A stretch of 64,000 bases of DNA from Desulfofundulus kuznetsovii DSM 6115 (GTDB lineage: Bacteria > Bacillota > Desulfotomaculia > Desulfotomaculales > Desulfovirgulaceae): contig NC_015573.1 in the NCBI RefSeq assembly GCF_000214705.1, positions 3,169,001 through 3,233,000 of the forward strand, given 5' to 3'. Shown one piece after another: positions 7,558 through 16,753 of the stretch (position 1 is its first letter; each line of letters begins with the position of its first letter). The translations under genes and the position numbers were made by a program. A model generated the notes under the pieces. It saw only the letters and a program-made list of their open reading frames with translations. It searched no databases and had not been told where the DNA came from.

Positions 7558-7770
7558 AGATTATTCCATAACCTCCATTTACTGTTTGATAGCATTATTT
7601 CGACATAATGTAGATAATTCCTTTTTCAAAACTATGTTAACGTTTTCTTAACCAAATTGTTACCGATTTGAAACGACAATAGGAGGAAAATTTTTTATAA
7701 TTTAGGGCAAATCCAGACAATGGGATGAAAGGGGTGAAGACTGAACGATTAGTCTGAGGCAGGCCGGATA

Positions 7771-8340
7771 ATGGTCAGGGGGGAGAAGGCTTTGGAAGAA
7801 GTACTTAATGTGGGAGCTAAAGACTTAGAAAGTAACGCATTGGAAAAAGATAACAGGGAGCTGGAAGCTTTCAGCAAGGGAGCTTTGTTAAAATCGCTTG
7901 CTACTATGAATCTGGCTTACGTAGCTCCCTACCTGTCCCTGGCGCGGGTGGCGGGTAAAGAAGCAGGCGCGGGGGCAGTGGTGACCATTCGGGTTCGGGA
8001 TGTAAATATTCTGGCCACAGGTAGTTACACGGTTGTCCGCATGTGCACTTTAACGGATATAGATGCTTCCAGCTCCAAAAAGAGCATCGAAAATGTGTTG
8101 TACACTTTCCGGAACCTCTCCAGCCAGGTTTTTGAGCCCTTTGTCTACATAGGGAGAACAGGTGACGGTCAGGAGGTGTTTGCTTACTCGAACGACAACG
8201 AGTTTTTGGTGGCGAGGATGGGCGGCGACGACGAGACCGTGCTGCAGGAAGTGAAGAAAATGGCCACTGAGAAGGAAATGCGTTCGCTGGCCAGGTTTGT
8301 GGATTTAATAGAGCAGGAGATAAAGGCGGCTGCCATTTAA
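7771..8340 (+). CDS. Hypothetical protein preceding the peptide cluster
   Basis: A 189-residue soluble protein that I do not recognise. It has no signal peptide or membrane segment. The central part alternates strands and helices (VTIRVRDVNILATGSYTVVR, then VFEPFVYIGRTGDGQEVFAY), and the C-terminal 35 residues are a charged helix. The ATG at 7771 has a weak ribosome site. A TTG at 7792 preceded by GGGGGGAG is an alternative start. It lies 180 bases upstream of the small peptide gene, in the same direction, and might belong to the same functional unit, but that is only positional. Confidence 0.6.
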   Translation: MVRGEKALEEVLNVGAKDLESNALEKDNRELEAFSKGALLKSLATMNLAYVAPYLSLARVAGKEAGAGAVVTIRVRDVNILATGSYTVVRMCTLTDIDASSSKKSIENVLYTFRNLSSQVFEPFVYIGRTGDGQEVFAYSNDNEFLVARMGGDDETVLQEVKKMATEKEMRSLARFVDLIEQEIKAAAI

Positions 8341-8370
8341 TAAAGAGTGGCAGCGGAGGTAAACGAGAGT

Positions 8371-8487
8371 AAGGTGGTCTCCACCCCGGTCAACCCACCC
8401 TTAAACGGTTCGACAAGGGGAAAACCCACCCTACCCTCGGCGATTATTATACACCAGGGGAGAGTGATTTTCAATGGAGACCACCTT
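8371..8487 (+). promoter_or_regulatory. Long-range inverted repeat in the peptide leader
   Basis: AAGGTGGTCTCCA at 8371-8383 is exactly complementary to TGGAGACCACCTT at 8475-8487, so an RNA could form a 13-bp stem closing a 91-base loop just ahead of the peptide gene at 8522. The left arm also contains a local hairpin, GGTGG-TCT-CCACC, so two structures compete. This suggests a leader that controls expression. No known riboswitch or T-box signature was recognised. Confidence 0.5.
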
Positions 8488-8521
8488 CTTCTAAATTCAA
8501 AAAGGAAGGAGGTGGGTACCG

Positions 8522-8743
8522 GTGAGGGAATTCGAACTCGACCGCCCGGTCGATGCTGTTGCGGTGATGGCTGGTAATTCGTCGAACACTGGAGCAAGGC
8601 CGATGGCAATCTATGCACCACTGGTTGTTAACGTGGTTGCCGTGTATGAGTACCTTGCTCTTGGCTATGGCGCTGTTGCTGCTGTTGCTGCTGCAGTATG
8701 GAATGGAGTTTCGCTTTGGACTGCAAAATATATTTATAGTTAG
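8522..8743 (+). CDS. Candidate RiPP precursor peptide, Cys-free and Ala/Val/Tyr-rich
   Basis: A 73-residue peptide starting at GTG 8522, with a strong GGAGGTG site 8-9 bases upstream. The N-terminal half (MREFELDRPVDAVAVMAG, then NSSNTGARP) looks like a charged and polar leader. The rest is hydrophobic and rich in Ala, Val and Tyr (VVNVVAVYEYLALGYG, then AVAAVAAAVWNGVSLW and TAKYIYS). There is no Cys, which argues against lanthionine or sactipeptide chemistry. A hairpin follows the gene, then a membrane protein, a radical SAM enzyme and an ABC exporter, as expected for a modified and exported peptide. It could instead be a small membrane protein. Known families were not recognised with certainty. 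Confidence 0.6.
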   Translation: MREFELDRPVDAVAVMAGNSSNTGARPMAIYAPLVVNVVAVYEYLALGYGAVAAVAAAVWNGVSLWTAKYIYS

Positions 8744-8780
8744 TCTGAATAGAACGTATTTACCTATAATTGTGTTTATG

Positions 8781-8812
8781 AGGAGTTGGGAGTGAAACCA
8801 CTTCCAACTCCT
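8781..8812 (+). terminator. Intercistronic hairpin after the peptide gene
   Basis: AGGAGTTGG and AGTG pair with CACT and CCAACTCCT, with one internal mismatch and an AAAC loop, giving about 14 bp. Only a weak U-rich tail (ATATTTTATCT) follows. It may act as a partial terminator or RNA stabiliser, giving much more peptide than downstream enzyme, as is common in bacteriocin operons. Confidence 0.6.
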
Positions 8813-8849
8813 AGACATATTTTATCTCTACTTGGGAGAGGTGACGTAT

Positions 8850-9386
8850 TTGGTCAATATTAAATGGTTTACTCCAGCTCCGCGTGACATTTTGATAAGA
8901 ATTTCTACATATATTGTTGGGCCTGTTATCGTACTGATACCAACCTTTATAGCTGGAGCGAATAATGGAGATTGGGTTTCCACCATGGCGGGTGTTGGTG
9001 GTGTATTATTGGCTATTTATGTTATCGCTTACTTGTTTTCTTCGGTTAGTGCTTACGGTATTGATGCCGATCAGTTAATTATTAGAAAGCCAGTTGGTGC
9101 AATTTCCATCCCTTACAGCCAGATTATCTCTATCAAATCAATAGAGAAGTTGAATGCAGGATTTAAAGTCTTTGCCAACGCGGGACTATTTGGATATTTT
9201 GGGTTGTTTTTCAGTGAGGATGATAATAAAACGGTTGGAGTATACGCTACCCGTTTAAAACAGTTGGTGCGTATTCAAATCGCCAATAGCAAGACATACT
9301 ACCTTTCCCCTGCTGAGCCGGAGAAGTTTGTCGAAGCGGTGAAGCAGCATTTAAACCAGAATCATCAAGGGGGAGAAAAATCATGA
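8850..9386 (+). CDS. Membrane protein with bacterial PH-like domain
   Basis: About 178 residues from a TTG at 8850, with GAGAGGTGA upstream. A GTG at 8841 is possible. Two membrane segments (about 15-40 and 50-75) precede a cytoplasmic or surface PH-like domain (SAYGIDADQLIIRKPVGA, then YSQIISIKSIE), which includes FGYFGLF and ends with LSPAEPEKFVEAVKQHL, as in the bPH_5-type families. It overlaps the radical SAM gene by 4 bases, so the two are translationally coupled. A second protein of the same kind follows that enzyme. The role is not known; immunity or a scaffold for peptide modification at the membrane are possibilities. Confidence 0.7.
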   Translation: MVNIKWFTPAPRDILIRISTYIVGPVIVLIPTFIAGANNGDWVSTMAGVGGVLLAIYVIAYLFSSVSAYGIDADQLIIRKPVGAISIPYSQIISIKSIEKLNAGFKVFANAGLFGYFGLFFSEDDNKTVGVYATRLKQLVRIQIANSKTYYLSPAEPEKFVEAVKQHLNQNHQGGEKS

Positions 9387-10369
9387 TTCCGCAGGTTTTG
9401 GCTTTTATTACCACGTACAGGTGCAACTTTTCCTGTGATCATTGCTCCGTCGCTGCCGGACCGGAGCGCCGGGAAGTGCTGGCGGCAGGTGTTATGCAGC
9501 GGGTCATAGAACAGGCTTATGCCCTGCCGTCCATCCGGGTGATCGTTTTTACCGGTGGCGAACCTACACTTTACCCGGAACTCATACAAGAAGGGATTAA
9601 GCTGGCGCATGAAAAAGGTTTCGTTACCCGGTTGGTGACCAACGCCTGGTGGGCCCAAACGGCGGAGAAAGCATATCGTTTTCTGCAGGATTATCGAGCA
9701 GCGGGTCTTGACGAACTCAATATCAGTTACGACGACTTTCATGCAAAGTATCTTGAGTCGTTCGGCGGTGAGCGGAATCTGCTCAACGCCATAAGGGCGG
9801 CAACTGAACTGGGCATGACCACGCTGGTGGGCTCGGTACTGTACCATGGGGCCAGGATAAGATCCGGTTACTTACGCAGGATCTTCAAAGATGCCGGCAT
9901 CCAGCAAGAAATCAAGTTCCTGGAGGATTTCGTGTTTCCTTTAGGCCGCGCCCGGCGGAAACTGCCTTTACACTTTTTCCCTTCCGACATGGAAAAAAGA
10001 GAGCAAGGGGCCTGCCAGGAGGCCGGGCATACTTTAACAATTTTGCCGGATGGAAAAATATTGTTTTGTTGCGGGCACATCATAAACAGTAAGGCGCAGG
10101 CCATTCTGACGGTAGATAGTATGGCTTCCGGGGTTTCCCTGCCCGAAATTGTCGGGCGGATGCAGCGTAACGTATTTTACTGGTGGCTGCACCTCGAAGG
10201 ACCGGAAGCGGTACTGGCCGAACTGGGGGTGGAAAAAAAATTTTACCGGAGGTGTGAAGCCTGCTTTTACCTGGGTACGGCCTGCCGGGAAAAGTTGCTC
10301 ACTCTGGCGGCGAGGAAAGAGGAAATTTTCGCGCGGTGGGAGGCGAGAAAAATTGGCCTACCAGCTTAG
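9383..10369 (+). CDS. Radical SAM enzyme with C-terminal auxiliary-cluster cysteines
   Basis: A 328-residue protein. The radical SAM motif C14-x3-C18-x2-C21 (TTYRCNFSCDHCSV) binds the [4Fe-4S] cluster that cleaves S-adenosylmethionine. GGEP at 58-61 is the SAM-binding motif. Further cysteines at 211, 229-230, 291, 294 and 301 (the last three as CEACFYLGTAC) resemble a SPASM or twitch domain that holds an extra cluster in peptide-modifying enzymes. It lies in one coupled operon with two PH-like membrane proteins, downstream of a small Cys-free peptide gene and upstream of an ABC exporter. Likely role: modification of that peptide, for example epimerisation or a carbon-carbon crosslink. The exact chemistry cannot be read from sequence. 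Confidence 0.85.
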   Translation: MIPQVLAFITTYRCNFSCDHCSVAAGPERREVLAAGVMQRVIEQAYALPSIRVIVFTGGEPTLYPELIQEGIKLAHEKGFVTRLVTNAWWAQTAEKAYRFLQDYRAAGLDELNISYDDFHAKYLESFGGERNLLNAIRAATELGMTTLVGSVLYHGARIRSGYLRRIFKDAGIQQEIKFLEDFVFPLGRARRKLPLHFFPSDMEKREQGACQEAGHTLTILPDGKILFCCGHIINSKAQAILTVDSMASGVSLPEIVGRMQRNVFYWWLHLEGPEAVLAELGVEKKFYRRCEACFYLGTACREKLLTLAARKEEIFARWEARKIGLPA

Positions 10370-10925
10370 CTTTTGGGAAGTACTTAAGGCCTTTTTCGTC
10401 CCCGTGGACCCTCTTTTCTATATTTTATATCTTGCGGTTTTCGGCTTTCCTTTGCTTTTTATGCTGTGGCGGGTGTGGAAATTACGAAAAAAAGGGATCT
10501 CACCCAACCTCCGTCCTGTACTGATGGTAGAAGTGTTTATTGTAACCTCAGGGCTGGCGGTATTCCTGATCATGGCCCTGCTTTACACCGGTTCGGGCTG
10601 GCGACTGGAAGACGGAAAGTTGCAGATTAAAGGTAATCCTGGATCTCCGGAGATCGTAGAGCTGGACAAAACCCGCATTGCCCTGGTAGAAAGCACAGGA
10701 TCGTGGCAGGCGACTCTGCGCACGGGAGGGATTGGCCTTCCAGGTTTTTCTGCCGGCCGTTTCAGATTTGAAAATGGCAAAAAAGCGCTGTATTTCCGGC
10801 ATCTCGGATCGTCCCATGAGGTAGTGCTGGAGTTCGACGGTCGCTACTATGTGCTTTTGTATCCTGGTGTAGAAGATCTCTACCGGGAACTTATAGCCAG
10901 GGGCGCACAACCAGCAAAACTGTGA
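10353..10925 (+). CDS. Second membrane protein with PH-like domain
   Basis: About 190 residues from a TTG at 10353, with GGAGG 9 bases upstream; it overlaps the radical SAM gene by 17 bases. Two hydrophobic segments (YILYLAVFGFPLLFML and EVFIVTSGLAVFLIMALLY) lead into a domain (LEDGKLQIKG, FSAGRFRFENGKKALYF, VVLEFDGRYYVLLYPGVEDL) that parallels the end of the protein at 8850-9386. Both look like distant bPH_5-type paralogues placed on either side of the modifying enzyme. Their duplication suggests a structural or immunity role at the membrane. Function is not established. Confidence 0.7.
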   Translation: MAYQLSFWEVLKAFFVPVDPLFYILYLAVFGFPLLFMLWRVWKLRKKGISPNLRPVLMVEVFIVTSGLAVFLIMALLYTGSGWRLEDGKLQIKGNPGSPEIVELDKTRIALVESTGSWQATLRTGGIGLPGFSAGRFRFENGKKALYFRHLGSSHEVVLEFDGRYYVLLYPGVEDLYRELIARGAQPAKL

Positions 10926-10964
10926 CTTATTGTTCACTATTTATATGGTGAGGTTTTAAAACTT

Positions 10965-12791
10965 ATGTGGAAGGATCTAGTAGCTTTGTGGAATCTGGCG
11001 AAAATCTACCTGAAGGGCAAGACGGGCGCAATTCTTCTCGGTCTTTTTACCAGTATCATCTTTTCCCTTACCGGCCTTGCCACCCCTTACTTAACCAGGT
11101 TTCTGATCGATGTTGTTTTTCATGCCAGCCGCGGGGATTTGCTCTTGCCGCTTTTGATCATCTGCGGGGTTATACTCATCATTCTGTTCTTCACAGGGAT
11201 TATTTCGGACTACGTTCTGGTCAGGACTTTTGAGCGAGTTAAGTTGTTAATGCGGCACGACCTTTTCAGGCGATTGCTAAAAGCGCCTGTGGATTTCCTG
11301 CTGATGCAGCGCAGCGGGGAGCTGAATTATCGTATCTTCGGGGATACGGAGACCATTCAAAGTTTCTTTAACCGGTTACTCATTGGACTACCTATTGATT
11401 TGCTCTTTATCGTTATCATTTCCTCTATAATGGTCGGCTGGAATTTGCGGATGGCGCTTTTCGTGTTCGCCGTGTTATGTTTGCAGGTACTGGTGATTAT
11501 TGGGTTTCAGAAACCATTGTTAAAATACGCCCTTCTTCAGAAAGGCAAAGCACAATTTTTATCCGGTTTCGTGGTCGAGAGGTTTAGAAATATTCAGCTC
11601 ACCAGGACGTTAAATGCCGGGGCGATGGAGACAGATAGCTTTAAGTCCGGTCTGGAAGAACTGATGGGTATAAACGTGAAAGCTTATATGCTTGGCAAGT
11701 TTTCTGAGTTATCCGTGGTGCTGGTTAACAACATCTGGTCCTTCGGCATTTTATGGTACGGGGGGCGGTTGGTATTAGCAGGGCAAATCACTCTGGGGAC
11801 GCTTATGGCATTTTTGCTCACCGCAGGGATGCTATATCCCCGTATTGCCTCTGTTGTTGGTAGCGTCCTTTCTTTCCAGGATGTGCGTGCCAGTCTATAC
11901 CGGTTTCTGGAGTACCATCGAGTAATGCCGGCGGTACACGAGCCTCCGGAAGCGGTCGAACTACTCTTGGAGGAAGGCAAGGTAATTTTCGAGAACGTCT
12001 GGTTCGGGTATAAGCCGGAAGAGCCGGTTTTAAAGGGATTAAGTGCTACCTTTGAGCCGCGAAAAATCACCGCGGTGGTCGGGAGAAGTGGAGTCGGTAA
12101 GAGTACGCTGGCGCGATTGCTGGTAAGGCTTTACGATCCCTGGGAAGGAAGAATTCTAATTGATAATGTCGATATCAGACAGGTCACAATAGAATCCTTG
12201 CGGAACAATATCAGGTACGTTATCCAGGGAGAGTTCCTTTTTAGCGGTAGTATCTGGGATAACATCTGCTATGGGGTGGGTTCCTGTAGTGAGGAGCAGG
12301 TTTTCGCCGCCGCCGGGAAGGCCGGAGCTGATGAGTTCATTATGCAGCTGCCCGAAGGATTCCACACCCGGATCGGGGAAGGAGGGTTCCAACTATCCAG
12401 CGGCGAGGCCCAGCGGATTGCTCTCGCCCGGTTATTTTTGGCCAATCCCAGAATAGTTGTTCTGGATGAGCCCACCTCCTTCCTGGACCCGGAAACGGAG
12501 AGCGCCATACATCAGGCGATCATGGATCTTAAGGAAACCGCCACCGTTATTGTGATTGCACACCGGCCGTCCACCGTCAAGATAGCCGATCACATAATCG
12601 TGTTGGATAACGGCGTGGTTGCCGAACAAGGAACGCATGCCGAATTACTTGGTAAAAAAGGGTTATATGCGGCCATTTACACTGAACTGTGCCGGCGGGA
12701 ACCCGGTTTGCCGGTAAAGAAAGAAGTATGCACTCCGGCACCGGCTGGAGTGTCCTCAAATGTGATTTCGCACGGGGAGGGTGTATCTTGA
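10965..12791 (+). CDS. ABC exporter, fused membrane and ATPase domains
   Basis: A 608-residue half-transporter of the ABCB/MsbA type. Six membrane segments span about 1-310, followed by the ATPase domain. That domain has Walker A (VVGRSGVGKSTLARLL, about 370-385), a signature LSSGEAQRIALARL in which Ser-Gly-Glu replaces the usual SGGQ, Walker B (IVVLDEPTSFLD), and a His in VIVIAHRPSTV. There is no N-terminal C39 peptidase, so if it exports the upstream peptide the leader must be removed by another enzyme or retained. It follows the second PH-like gene by 39 bases and is likely in the same transcript. It would work as a homodimer. Confidence 0.85.
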   Translation: MWKDLVALWNLAKIYLKGKTGAILLGLFTSIIFSLTGLATPYLTRFLIDVVFHASRGDLLLPLLIICGVILIILFFTGIISDYVLVRTFERVKLLMRHDLFRRLLKAPVDFLLMQRSGELNYRIFGDTETIQSFFNRLLIGLPIDLLFIVIISSIMVGWNLRMALFVFAVLCLQVLVIIGFQKPLLKYALLQKGKAQFLSGFVVERFRNIQLTRTLNAGAMETDSFKSGLEELMGINVKAYMLGKFSELSVVLVNNIWSFGILWYGGRLVLAGQITLGTLMAFLLTAGMLYPRIASVVGSVLSFQDVRASLYRFLEYHRVMPAVHEPPEAVELLLEEGKVIFENVWFGYKPEEPVLKGLSATFEPRKITAVVGRSGVGKSTLARLLVRLYDPWEGRILIDNVDIRQVTIESLRNNIRYVIQGEFLFSGSIWDNICYGVGSCSEEQVFAAAGKAGADEFIMQLPEGFHTRIGEGGFQLSSGEAQRIALARLFLANPRIVVLDEPTSFLDPETESAIHQAIMDLKETATVIVIAHRPSTVKIADHIIVLDNGVVAEQGTHAELLGKKGLYAAIYTELCRREPGLPVKKEVCTPAPAGVSSNVISHGEGVS

Positions 12792-12916: not shown

Positions 12917-13615
12917 ATGAGTGAAAATGGTCAAATACACTACGGGAGGCTTAAAGTGTTGACAAGTCCCGGGAAAGCTTTTGAAGCAATTGTTGAGCAA
13001 CCAGCCTTTCTCAAATCATCCCTGCTTATCAGCGGAGTAAATTTTCTTCTGGCACTGGTTCTGGTACCCAAAATTCAGGCTAATGTTTTGTGGATGATCG
13101 AACAGGGGACAATCCCCATACCACCCGATCAAGTAGAGATGATGCGAGCGGTGGTGCCGAAAGTAACCGCTGCAGGAAGTCTGATCTCTGCCCTGGTGAT
13201 TCCCTGGGGCGTCTGGCTGGTGGTCGCCGCTTTGCTGAAACTGTTCTCTGCGTTTAGTGCTAAAAGTACCCCCTTCAGAGTTCTTTTTGCCGTAGCCGTT
13301 TACGGCTACATCCCTATACTGATCGGTACAATAACAGCAACTCTCATTGCCCTTGTCGTACCGGCGGAAAACCTGCAGCAGGTAAGCCTCAGCCTGGCCT
13401 CCTTCTTGCCCCATCAAAAAAGCTTTATTTACTCTTTCCTCACCCAGTGCAGCCCCTTTACCTGGTGGAGCCTGATCCTCTGGGGAACAGGCGGTGCGGC
13501 AGCGATGCAGATCCGGCCGGGTGGCACGGTCGCCTACCTCTTCGGGTGCTGGCTGTTGTTTGCCCTGCTCTCATCTGCCCTGGCTTTCTGGAAAGCCCCG
13601 ACCGGCATCGGCTAG
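12917..13615 (+). CDS. Yip1-family membrane protein
   Basis: A 232-residue protein with about five membrane segments and the Yip1-type start (LKVLTSPGKAFEAIVEQPAF) in which a short amphipathic region leads into the first helix. The ATG at 12917 follows GGGAGG. It sits 126 bases after the exporter and 15 bases before the MacA-like gene, so it probably belongs to the efflux set. In Gram-positive bacteria such Yip1-like proteins are often found next to bacteriocin or efflux ABC systems. A role in self-protection is plausible but unproven. Confidence 0.75.
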   Translation: MSENGQIHYGRLKVLTSPGKAFEAIVEQPAFLKSSLLISGVNFLLALVLVPKIQANVLWMIEQGTIPIPPDQVEMMRAVVPKVTAAGSLISALVIPWGVWLVVAALLKLFSAFSAKSTPFRVLFAVAVYGYIPILIGTITATLIALVVPAENLQQVSLSLASFLPHQKSFIYSFLTQCSPFTWWSLILWGTGGAAAMQIRPGGTVAYLFGCWLLFALLSSALAFWKAPTGIG

Positions 13616-13630: not shown

Positions 13631-14878
13631 TTGTTGCGCAGTATTAAACTCTCGCTGGCCATAGCCGGTGCCATTTTGTTGATTGCTGTGGTGGTGGCCA
13701 GTATTATTCGGGGTTCCAGCACTGCCGCGGTAGAGGTTAAAACCGCCCAGGCCGAAGAGAGGATATTTGAGGATAAGGTCCTGACCACAGGCAGGATTGA
13801 AGCCTTCCGCCGGGCGGAGGTGGTGGCTCCTTTTCCTGCCAGGCTTTTAAGCTTAAAGGTAAAAGATGGCGACTATGTTGCTGCCGGCCAGTTGCTGGGC
13901 GTGCTGGATACAGATGAGATGGAGAAACGGCTCGGGGAAACCCGGGCGGCCCTCGCCGTTGCCGAAGCAGAACTGGCCCAGGCACAAACCCCGGCTGCGC
14001 TTGAAGTGACCCAGGCTGAGGCTGCTCTCAAAGAAGCTGAAGCCCAGTTTCAGGACGCACGCCGGAAATTGGAACGCTATCGCTCCCTGTTCGAGCAGGG
14101 CGCCGTTCCAGAAGCCGATTTGGAGGCAGCCGAAACAGAATACGTCAAAGCCGAAGCAAACCGGCAATCAGCCGAGGCGCGTCTAACAGCGCTGCAAAAA
14201 AGCCATGACGAAAAGATTAGAGTGCTTCAGGCCCGGGTAGAACAGGCCCGGGTGGCTGTGGACAATGCCCGGCAGGAAGCGGCCAAAGGACGGCTTACCG
14301 CTCCCATAGGCGGGGTGGTTCTCACGACGGCCCGGGAAGGAACCTTCCTGCAACCCGGCACCATAATCTTAACCATCAGCGACAGGAATTCCCTTCAGGT
14401 GGTAGCCGAAGTAAGCGAGCAGGATGTCCGCGGCATAGCAGCCGGGCAGGAAGCGGAGATCCACTGGGCCGGGAGTCCGGGTAAAACCCTGCCGGCAAAA
14501 GTTTCCCGGGTTTCTCCTGCCGTAACCAGAAGTAACATTCATGAAACGGAAAACGTGGTGCGAGTATACCTGGATATGGAGCGAAACGACATTCTGCCCG
14601 GAGCTACGGTTGACGTGGTCATCCACCGCGTAAAGCCAAGAAAATCCCTCCTGATACCTAACGAAGCGCTGCTTGACGAAGGTAAGACAAAAACCGTTTT
14701 CGTAGTGGAAGGCAACCTCGCCCGTAAACGCACGGTGACGGTGGGCCGCTCCAACGAACTATACACCGAAATTCTGGACGGGCTAAAACCGGGGGCTGCG
14801 GTAGTTATTAACCCCAAAAACATTAAAGACGGCCAGCCGGTTCGTAAAATTCAGGCGGGGGCGAAGGCTAGTGATTAA
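13631..14878 (+). CDS. MacA/HlyD-type periplasmic adaptor-like efflux protein
   Basis: A 415-residue membrane-anchored protein from a TTG at 13631 preceded by GGAGAGAAGG. An N-terminal membrane segment (LSLAIAGAILLIAVVVASII) is followed by a biotinyl-lipoyl-like half (VVAPFPARLLSLKVKDGDYV), a long coiled coil (about 95-200, Ala/Glu-rich), the second lipoyl half (GRLTAPIGGVVLTTAREGTF) and a beta-barrel region. It overlaps the next gene by 8 bases. With the two following genes it forms a MacAB-type export or antimicrobial-resistance complex. In Gram-positive cells such sets often remove peptides from the membrane. Confidence 0.88.
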   Translation: MLRSIKLSLAIAGAILLIAVVVASIIRGSSTAAVEVKTAQAEERIFEDKVLTTGRIEAFRRAEVVAPFPARLLSLKVKDGDYVAAGQLLGVLDTDEMEKRLGETRAALAVAEAELAQAQTPAALEVTQAEAALKEAEAQFQDARRKLERYRSLFEQGAVPEADLEAAETEYVKAEANRQSAEARLTALQKSHDEKIRVLQARVEQARVAVDNARQEAAKGRLTAPIGGVVLTTAREGTFLQPGTIILTISDRNSLQVVAEVSEQDVRGIAAGQEAEIHWAGSPGKTLPAKVSRVSPAVTRSNIHETENVVRVYLDMERNDILPGATVDVVIHRVKPRKSLLIPNEALLDEGKTKTVFVVEGNLARKRTVTVGRSNELYTEILDGLKPGAAVVINPKNIKDGQPVRKIQAGAKASD

Positions 14879-15551
14879 GCTCACGGGAGTAAGCAAGGTA
14901 TACGGTAGAGGCCAGGCGGCGGTCCAGGCGTTAAAAGATGTAACTTTGGAAATCAAACGGAATGAATTCGTAGCAGTGATGGGCCCGTCGGGCTCAGGCA
15001 AGTCCACTTTTTTAAGTATACTGGGTTGCCTGGAACGACCCAATGGAGGCGAGTACTGCTTTGACGGACGGCAGGTAAGCTCCATGAGCGAAGACGAGCT
15101 GGCAGTTTTGCGCAACAGGCGGATCGGCTTTATCTTTCAGACCTTTAATCTACTCCCCCGCTTTAACATCCTGCGCAATGTGGAGCTGCCGCTGGCCTAC
15201 ACCGACGTGCCGCGCAAAGAACGGCGGGAGCGGGCGGCAGCACTGCTCACCAGGGTGGGACTCGCTCACCGCCTGCAACATAAGCCCCCGGAGCTTTCCG
15301 GCGGCGAGCAGCAGCGGGTGGCTATTGCCCGGGCACTGGTTACCAATCCCCCCCTCATTCTTGCCGACGAACCCACAGGCAATCTGGACAGCCGGACCAG
15401 CCACGAAATCATGGCCATCTTCCGGGAACTGCACAAGGAAGGCCGCACCATTATTATCGTCACTCACGAACCGGATATCGCCCGTTACGCCGGCCGCATC
15501 CTGCACTTCCTGGACGGAACGGTGGTCAGGGAGGAGGTAACGGTGCAATGA
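14871..15551 (+). CDS. MacB/LolD-type ABC ATPase
   Basis: A 226-residue ATPase starting with GTG inside the end of the previous gene. Walker A is [14 protein letters not shown], the Q-loop is in [11 protein letters not shown], the signature is [15 protein letters not shown], and Walker B is [12 protein letters not shown]. All are intact and typical of MacB, LolD and FtsE relatives. Its gene overlaps the permease gene by 4 bases. It powers the FtsX-like permease and adaptor on either side. Confidence 0.92.
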
Positions 15552-16753
15552 GGCTTGACGACCTCGTCCATTTTGCAGCCGGAAATCTCGCCGCTTACCG
15601 GCTGCGGGCGGCATTGACCATTTCCGGTATTGCCATTGGCATTGCTGCGGTTATTGCTGTGGTGGCCATCGGCCAGGGCGGCCGGGCGGTGCTGATCGCA
15701 GAGATGGAAAAACTGGGAAGCACCCGTGCTTTTGAAATAACAGTGGATCATATGCGGGGGGAAATGGCCACGGCTGGTACTTTCCGGCTGCAGGATGCTG
15801 TTCTGATTAAAGAAGTTTCCCCCTATGTGGAAAAGATGGCTCCCCTCACTTTCAGCCAGATGATCGACGTGCGGCGGCCGTACAGCGGGACAAAGCCCGT
15901 TTTATCACAGCTCATCGGAACCACCGCCGACTTTACCGCCGTCAGAAATATGCCCCTGCAAAAAGGACGCTTTATCTCCCCGGCGGATGTAACAGGGCGC
16001 CAGGGGGTGGTGGTGCTGGACGCAGCGCTGGCGGAAGATCTCTTTCCGGACACGGATCCCCTTGGGAAACAGGTGTTTATCAAGAACATTCCGGCCACAG
16101 TGGTAGGCATCCTTGAAAGAGAATCCTCGTTGCTTATGGGAATGATGAACATAAGGAACGCTTACGTTCCCATTACGTTTGCCCAGGAAATCTTAAACTC
16201 ACAGGTCATCCACCAGTTAGCCGGGGTGGCGGTATCCAGAGAAGCTGTTCCACAGGCTATAGAGGATAGCCTGAAAGTTCTCAAAGCCAGACACCCCGGC
16301 TCAGGTGTGCATTACACCGGTTTGTCAGTGGAGGAACAACTGGCTGCGGCAGGCAAGGTCACCTCGGTCATGACCCTGATCATAGGGGCGGTAGCCGGCA
16401 TAGCCCTGCTTGTCGGAGGTATTGGAGTGATGAACATTATGCTGGTGGCGGTGACCGAACGTACCCGGGAAATAGGGCTTTTGATGGCCCTGGGCGCCCG
16501 CCGGCGGGACATTTTGCAGCTTTTTTTGACTGAAGCCGTAACCCTGTGCCTGGTAGGCGGTATCTTCGGCGTGCTGCTGGGCGCCGGCGGAGCTCTGGCT
16601 ATTGCCCGTTTTGCCCACTGGCCGCCGCTCATCTCTTTATGGACAGTGCTCCTGGCTTTTAGCTTTGCCGCTGCAGTAGGCCTGTTTTTCGGGCTGTACC
16701 CGGCCAGCCGGGCTGCTTCATTAAGCCCGGCGGAAGCGCTGAGGCACTTATAA
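15548..16753 (+). CDS. MacB/FtsX-type ABC permease
   Basis: A 401-residue permease. One N-terminal membrane segment (ALTISGIAIGIAAVIAVVAI) is followed by a large extracytoplasmic MacB-PCD-like domain (about 45-270) and three C-terminal membrane segments, including GGIGVMNIMLVAVTERTREIGLLMALGARR. The end, GLYPASRAASLSPAEALRHL, is the family signature. The last codons and the terminator that follow are duplicated elsewhere in the window (2380-2441 and 6455-6568), so another copy of this gene once existed. It completes the efflux set begun at 13631. Confidence 0.92.
   Translation: MRLDDLVHFAAGNLAAYRLRAALTISGIAIGIAAVIAVVAIGQGGRAVLIAEMEKLGSTRAFEITVDHMRGEMATAGTFRLQDAVLIKEVSPYVEKMAPLTFSQMIDVRRPYSGTKPVLSQLIGTTADFTAVRNMPLQKGRFISPADVTGRQGVVVLDAALAEDLFPDTDPLGKQVFIKNIPATVVGILERESSLLMGMMNIRNAYVPITFAQEILNSQVIHQLAGVAVSREAVPQAIEDSLKVLKARHPGSGVHYTGLSVEEQLAAAGKVTSVMTLIIGAVAGIALLVGGIGVMNIMLVAVTERTREIGLLMALGARRRDILQLFLTEAVTLCLVGGIFGVLLGAGGALAIARFAHWPPLISLWTVLLAFSFAAAVGLFFGLYPASRAASLSPAEALRHL

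Follow-up and report, generated by a model that had tools for sequence, protein, structure and literature searches.

A conserved radical SAM peptide cassette with putative epimerisation and PH-like immunity functions in Desulfofundulus kuznetsovii

The 64,000-nucleotide stretch of Desulfofundulus kuznetsovii DSM 6115 analysed here (hereafter the window; the host, a Desulfotomaculia-type thermophile, has a single-contig genome of 3,601,386 bp) holds a forward-strand operon in which a short hydrophobic peptide gene precedes genes for a radical S-adenosylmethionine (SAM) enzyme, two PH-like membrane proteins and an ATP-binding cassette (ABC) exporter. A first-pass annotation had read these genes as a system for a modified, exported peptide; open reading frame (ORF) calling and family searches confirmed the gene cluster, precursor and enzyme genes lie together in other genomes as well, and the locus is very probably a conserved cassette for a ribosomally synthesized and post-translationally modified peptide (RiPP). 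Its extent had to be redrawn: the ORF at 8347 with which the cluster had been opened is unrelated and lies inside a conserved leader RNA, and the unit takes in a conserved upstream gene, up (7771-8340), and, downstream, probably a YknWXYZ-like pump that ends at 16753; up, the leader RNA and the pump had been overlooked. The features follow one another in this order (below, G-numbers denote relative genomes and L-numbers loci or contigs from relatives):

7771..8340, + strand: up, 189 aa, no known family
8365..8517, + strand: leader RNA, about 152 nt, switch-like, 12 copies aligned
8522..8743, + strand: RiPP precursor of 73 aa without Cys; six other bacterial genomes have homologs
8781..8812, + strand: hairpin between precursor and ph1, 14-bp stem
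8832..9386, + strand: ph1, 184 aa, membrane-anchored bPH_5 protein (PF10882, E 2.6e-19)
9383..10369, + strand: radical SAM enzyme, 328 aa (radical SAM match E 7e-19; TIGR04078 best NCBIfam match)
10353..10925, + strand: ph2, 190 aa, PH-like (weak bPH_5 match, E 0.006)
10965..12791, + strand: ABC exporter, 608 aa, fused transmembrane and nucleotide-binding domains (PF00664, ABC_membrane, and PF00005, ABC_tran), no C39 peptidase
12917..13615, + strand: YknW-like Yip1 membrane protein (PF04893, E 2e-13; NF052650 YknW, E 1e-17, 64 bits, cutoff 110)
13631..14878, + strand: YknX-like adaptor, HlyD/RND_mfp (TIGR01730, 190 bits, above cutoff)
14871..15551, + strand: YknY-like ABC ATPase (MacB ATPase region, E 3e-76)
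15548..16753, + strand: YknZ-like MacB permease (MacB permease region, E 4e-65)

The precursor starts with GTG, 7 nt behind a Shine-Dalgarno (SD) sequence (AAGGAGGTG), and is, as first described, a Cys-free peptide of 73 residues with a second half rich in Ala, Val and Tyr. About residues 1-20 form a leader (MREFELDRPVDAVAxxxxN, with the conserved stretch MREFELDRPVDAVA), and the V/A/Y-rich core behind it varies: the six closest precursors agree in 14-19 of 19 leader residues, their cores diverge, and whole-precursor identity falls to 39-61%, except for the pair G352 and G281 at 88%. The precursor dN/dS is 0.37 in the closest informative pair. Across loci, enzyme and exporter remain 69-100% identical (the exporter in five other loci), with ph1 and ph2 more variable. 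The precursor N-terminus is kept beside the same enzyme in seven bacterial genomes, window included, the enzyme gene being intact in G003, G352, G059 and G038 and damaged in G281 and G272, and a V/A-rich segment (35 residues with at least 50% Ala, Val, Ile and Leu and a grand average of hydropathy of at least 1.2) occurs in 13 of 13 bacterial and archaeal precursor candidates versus 4 of the window's 205 ORFs in the 60-160 aa size range; these two observations argue that precursor conservation exceeds chance. A short precursor with a conserved leader and a variable core, adjacent to a modifying enzyme, is the arrangement that defines a RiPP locus. None of the seven bacterial cassette precursors contains Cys, which rules out thioether chemistry, in agreement with the first-pass annotation, and places the cassette outside the sactipeptides and ranthipeptides. 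The GYG motif singled out earlier is missing in homologs, among which neither an aromatic core position nor any fixed motif is conserved, and the window precursor matched no NHLP/Nif11-type leader family in Pfam or NCBIfam, as a proteusin would. The 14-bp hairpin behind the precursor, also recorded at first pass, has strong counterparts of differing sequence at the same position in five of six homologous loci, and may act as an attenuator or mRNA stabiliser.

The proposal of two PH-like membrane proteins holds firmly for ph1 (bPH_5, E 3e-19) and more weakly for ph2, whose assignment rests on the sub-threshold Pfam match and predicted topology. The ph2 gene starts with TTG and overlaps the enzyme gene; its AlphaFold2 (AF2) model (pLDDT 78) combines two transmembrane helices with a domain that is mainly beta in structure and carries a C-terminal helix, and a fold search returned no significant PDB match. 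What these proteins might do is suggested by two kinds of natural variation. The first is the exchange of cores. The window and G003 are 90-100% identical in nucleotide sequence on both flanks but drop to 42-62% from about 8600 to 9260, a stretch that takes in the core, the hairpin behind it and the greater part of ph1, so that core and ph1 have been exchanged together. G059 and G038 share 86-89% identity in enzyme, exporter, ph2 and ph1, but the core is replaced, with an extra ph1-type gene behind the new core in G038. In both of these independent genome pairs the swap junction lies near codon 20 of the precursor, at the leader/core boundary. Such natural swaps, with enzyme and exporter unchanged, are evidence for a tolerant enzyme and a specificity partner, and they make immunity and enzyme promiscuity directly testable; ph1 is probably an immunity partner specific to the core.

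The second kind is survival of the PH-like genes where the rest of the cassette is lost. No internal stop interrupts ph2 in any of 17 copies from 15 of 120 relatives, most of them without an intact enzyme, which was found for this clade in only 4 of 150 genomes searched. In G004 the precursor is gone, as are most of the enzyme and exporter genes, and ph1 (89% identical to that of the window) and ph2 are still open. In G021 (L030, reverse strand, 630-806) a deletion fuses the precursor leader (REFELDRPV) to mid-enzyme, leaving ph2 intact and ph1 partial, and in G281 and G272 most of the enzyme gene is deleted, with precursor, ph1 and ph2 retained. The dN/dS of ph1 and ph2 is 0.22-0.27 in G004 and G021, both of which have lost enzyme and exporter. 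Stand-alone ph2/ph1 pairs occur at L104, L105 and L107, and orphan ph2 genes without precursor or exporter elsewhere. Because ph2, often together with ph1, persists intact after loss of enzyme or precursor, or occurs by itself, we interpret ph1 and ph2 as probable immunity proteins and possible export helpers, and a toxin paired with PH-type immunity is a likely description of the locus. An alternative interpretation is that both proteins serve peptide export or processing without any immunity role, as in the enterocin EntDD14 locus, where export requires the PH proteins DdE and DdF (PMC8657885), which serve export rather than immunity. We consider this rather unlikely given the stand-alone pairs and orphans, the joint inheritance of ph1 and core, and the dN/dS values of both genes after loss of enzyme and exporter. 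Since PH pairs are known both for resistance to hydrophobic bacteriocins, as with YdbST and amylocyclicin, and for their export (PMC8144471, PMC10311245, PMC8657885), a mixed role is likely. A second bPH_5 homolog (64.8 bits) lies in the same genome (G000 1681234-1681725, L084), followed by a small membrane protein and with no adjacent precursor or enzyme.

The radical SAM enzyme carries a CxxxCxxC motif (C14, C18, C21), candidate auxiliary-cluster cysteines of the kind already recognised at first pass (C211, C229, C291, C294) and a candidate hydrogen donor, C230; all of these, including the five C-terminal ones, are invariant in six aligned sequences. Although no known family had been recognised at first, the enzyme is, by sequence comparison, a distant relative of YydG/EpeE, its nearest characterised counterpart over the full length, whose substrate is a peptide. 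The locus thus withstood the refuting conditions set at first pass: the peptide ORF is conserved next to homologous radical SAM genes, and no family with a non-peptide substrate claims the enzyme. TIGR04078 (YydG epimerase) was the best of 51 NCBIfam matches (94.6 bits over 12-297), and PDB matches were led by the EpeE/YydG entries 8ai6 and 8ai1 (E 2e-15). In the alignment with 8ai1 and 8ai3, C229-C230 fall on the CC of EpeE, the second of which, aligned to C230, is Ala in 8ai3. Cys223 has been proposed as the hydrogen donor of EpeE (PMC8326336), and our enzyme thus has the epipeptide cysteine set of CxxxCxxC, auxiliary-cluster cysteines and a Cys223 equivalent, with the proviso that equating EpeE chain position 248 with Cys223 assumes a 25-residue tag, deduced from chain length. 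Where intact, the enzyme is under strong purifying selection (dN/dS 0.08-0.13). The full-length EpeE match, the cysteine pattern and the hydrogen-donor alignment together make epimerisation the best-supported chemistry, and a probable one as judged from these alignments. Epimerisation and Tyr/Trp crosslinks had both been envisaged at first pass, and only the former is favoured here. That the enzyme instead installs another radical modification (C-C or C-O links at Tyr or Trp, or a side-chain ring) would be in keeping with the chemical diversity of radical SAM RiPP enzymes, the several aromatic residues in the cores and the distance from EpeE; we judge it quite unlikely, because the EpeE-type match is full-length with all five C-terminal cysteines, the hydrogen-donor position included, and because the cores share no aromatic position or fixed motif. 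The enzyme is not an ordinary YydG member, its TIGR04078 score being too low. More distant EpeE-like genes (L023, L024, L026, L034, L079) have no adjacent V/A-rich precursor. At L025 (Gemella cuniculi), a 243-aa protein (7609-8340) with an internal V/A/Y-rich hydrophobic stretch and no Pfam or NCBIfam match adjoins broken EpeE-like fragments and ABC genes.

Related arrangements extend to archaea. In a tree, the window enzyme falls inside an 11-member clade (support 98/98) that includes Thermoproteota. On the Thermoproteales contig L021, up is accompanied by a V/A-rich peptide of 96 aa, the enzyme, at 40% identity, and a membrane protein, and like arrangements occur in G558, G695 and G770 of the same phylum, the G770 enzyme being cut by the contig end. 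The archaeal G594 combines an ABC exporter with a precursor whose leader is NHLP-like (sub-threshold TIGR04509 match, E 1e-4). This genome (locus L073) has at least two enzyme copies, several V/A-rich precursors with NHLP-like leaders, an ABC exporter and a conserved gene of about 130 aa. Cys is present in some archaeal precursors. The gene that follows the archaeal enzyme is not supported as a ph2 homolog (hhalign 4.5%). The up protein is conserved next to the precursor in bacteria and is homologous to the gene preceding the archaeal precursors (hhalign 95.9%, E 5e-9). It has no Pfam or NCBIfam match, and Foldseek and VIA searches with its AF2 model (pLDDT 72; mostly beta-sheet, six strands and then two C-terminal helices) gave weak, unrelated matches (best E 8e-3; PDB Z 6.3 at most). 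This predicted fold differs from a winged helix, and a RiPP recognition element (RRE) was therefore rejected; up is possibly a chaperone or carrier of the hydrophobic peptide.

Loci for leaderless bacteriocins typically pair PH-domain proteins with an ABC system (PMC10311245, PMC8657885), and the retention of precursor, ph1 and ph2 in G281 and G272 could indicate that the product is a leaderless or circular-type hydrophobic bacteriocin handled by the PH/ABC machinery, in which the radical SAM enzyme is secondary or lost. The conserved leader with its variable core, the purifying selection on intact enzymes and the joint maintenance of enzyme and precursor in archaea make this very unlikely, and no DUF95/SpoIIM-type cyclisation domain, as expected for circular bacteriocins, was found in the operon proteins scanned against Pfam and NCBIfam.

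The RNA leader ahead of the precursor is a candidate for an unnamed cis-regulatory class. It could adopt two states. In the ON state a 5' strand (AAGGUGGUC, AAGGUGG(UC/CA)) pairs with an anti-SD strand; in the OFF state the 5' strand pairs with a mid strand, CCACC, and the anti-SD strand then pairs with the SD. Across 12 aligned copies, 98% of cells in the ON helix are paired, with two covarying pairs and a covariation score reached in 0 of 500 shuffles, and the anti-SD/SD helix keeps 7-11 of 11 pairs in every copy. Among the five cassettes the RNA is 80% conserved, and in these five copies alone covariation was not significant. A covariance model run on 113 genomes of the order found 18 copies, spread over 12 of them. 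The core of about 152 nt recurs upstream of other, mostly secreted, genes in G023, G025, G035, G043 and G082, and copies at L124, L125, L126, L127, L129 and L130 precede diverse, mostly secreted proteins. The RNA had no Rfam match, and a T-box or known riboswitch was rejected on that basis. Two ORFs at L129 (1719-1919 and 2216-2425) resemble circular-bacteriocin-type peptides by eye, and a Cys-rich protein at L126 (1729-2481, reverse strand) resembles halocin C8, neither with support from a family model; we make no claim that other genes behind this RNA are bacteriocins, as Pfam and NCBIfam gave no bacteriocin family for them. A signal or a spore or cell-surface factor rather than a toxin, as might be suggested by the occurrence of related RNA upstream of other proteins that are secreted, one of them carrying an M23 peptidase domain, has little likelihood, since core/ph1 allele swaps, orphan ph1 and ph2 genes and the adjoining pump fit toxin-immunity evolution.

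That pump comprises a Yip1 protein, a membrane fusion protein, an ATPase and a MacB-type permease in YknWXYZ order, with YknW at 64 of 110 bits, under the equivalog cutoff. Such genes, complete or partly covered, lie next to the cassette, or what remains of it, in G003, G004, G021, G038, G281, G089 and G042. YknWXYZ is an efflux pump that protects against the SDP peptide toxin (PMC4887032).

Taken together, we favour on balance a locus that encodes an epimerised ribosomal antimicrobial peptide with its export and immunity. In the proposed mechanism, the leader RNA would set the frequency of precursor translation. The radical SAM enzyme would take C-alpha hydrogens from chosen core residues, most likely Val, Ala or Ile, with Cys230 returning hydrogen on the opposite face to give D-residues. 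The resulting very hydrophobic core of about 45-50 aa might be held soluble by up and released by the ABC exporter and PH-like membrane proteins, with some protease cleaving off the leader; the product would then perturb membranes of related cells. In the producer, ph1 would provide core-specific immunity, ph2 a more general part of it, and the neighbouring YknWXYZ-like pump would clear invading peptide.

We caution that several observations weigh against this interpretation. No peptidase was found among the operon proteins in Pfam and NCBIfam scans. The TIGR04078 score is far from the equivalog cutoff of 300 bits, and EpeE lies outside the 11-member clade on a very long branch, so that the chemistry could have diverged from that of EpeE; in addition, Thr217 of the window enzyme aligns with EpeE chain position 235, which is Asp in 8ai1 and Ala in 8ai6. 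The retention statistics for ph2 versus the enzyme are modest, given the greater length of the enzyme gene and the relatedness of the loci, and the few retention events do not firmly exclude a deletion model based on length alone. The export function of the EntDD14 PH proteins belongs here as well.

No description of the cassette was found in the open-access literature searched, which is a limited test. Among known systems, the epipeptides of Bacillus subtilis (EpeXEPAB/YydFGHIJ) resemble it in their radical SAM enzyme, which is homologous and carries the same set of five C-terminal cysteines, in their small precursor and in the ABC genes of the operon; Val/Ile-type targets are expected here, and a membrane-active product is likely. 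The cassette differs in having no EpeX-like precursor and no EpeP protease, a fused MsbA-like exporter (with ABC_membrane and ABC_tran domains only, in line with the C39-free exporter first described) in place of EpeAB, which Pfam and NCBIfam scans did not find in the operon, a hydrophobic core of about 45-50 aa versus 17, two PH-like proteins and up, and an enzyme far under the TIGR04078 cutoff. The product is most likely an epimerised membrane-active bacteriocin, epipeptide-like in action and, lacking EpeP and EpeAB and scoring far below that cutoff, outside the epipeptide family. Leaderless and circular loci with YdbST-like PH proteins (geobacillin 6, EntDD14, lacticin Q, amylocyclicin resistance) likewise combine a hydrophobic peptide, two PH-domain membrane proteins and an ABC transporter, but the cassette has a leader, a radical SAM enzyme and a bPH_5-type PH domain. 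The SDP-toxin pump YknWXYZ has the same four genes in the same order as those adjoining the cassette, although the window's YknW scores under the curated cutoff. Proteusins of the PoyD/OspD type, such as polytheonamide, resemble it in a V/A-rich core that is long (about 48 aa) and presumably epimerised at several residues, and the archaeal G594 has an NHLP-like leader, sub-threshold; the window precursor has no such leader, and its enzyme is EpeE-type with auxiliary-cluster cysteines rather than PoyD-type, PoyD-type enzymes reportedly having the radical SAM cluster only, plus an RRE (PMC8326336). A broader and doubtful reading is that an EpeE-related clade spanning Desulfotomaculia and Thermoproteales forms a separate cross-domain class of epimerised RiPPs, making multi-D-residue, possibly D/L-alternating membrane-channel peptides from long V/A-rich cores, with swappable core/PH-immunity cassettes, a new translation-gating leader RNA and a polytheonamide-like action achieved by a different enzyme type. 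The favoured interpretation itself would take epimerase RiPPs beyond the 17-residue epipeptides of Bacillus, into the long hydrophobic peptides that thermophiles make, and would tie bacteria and hot-spring archaea together through one cassette.

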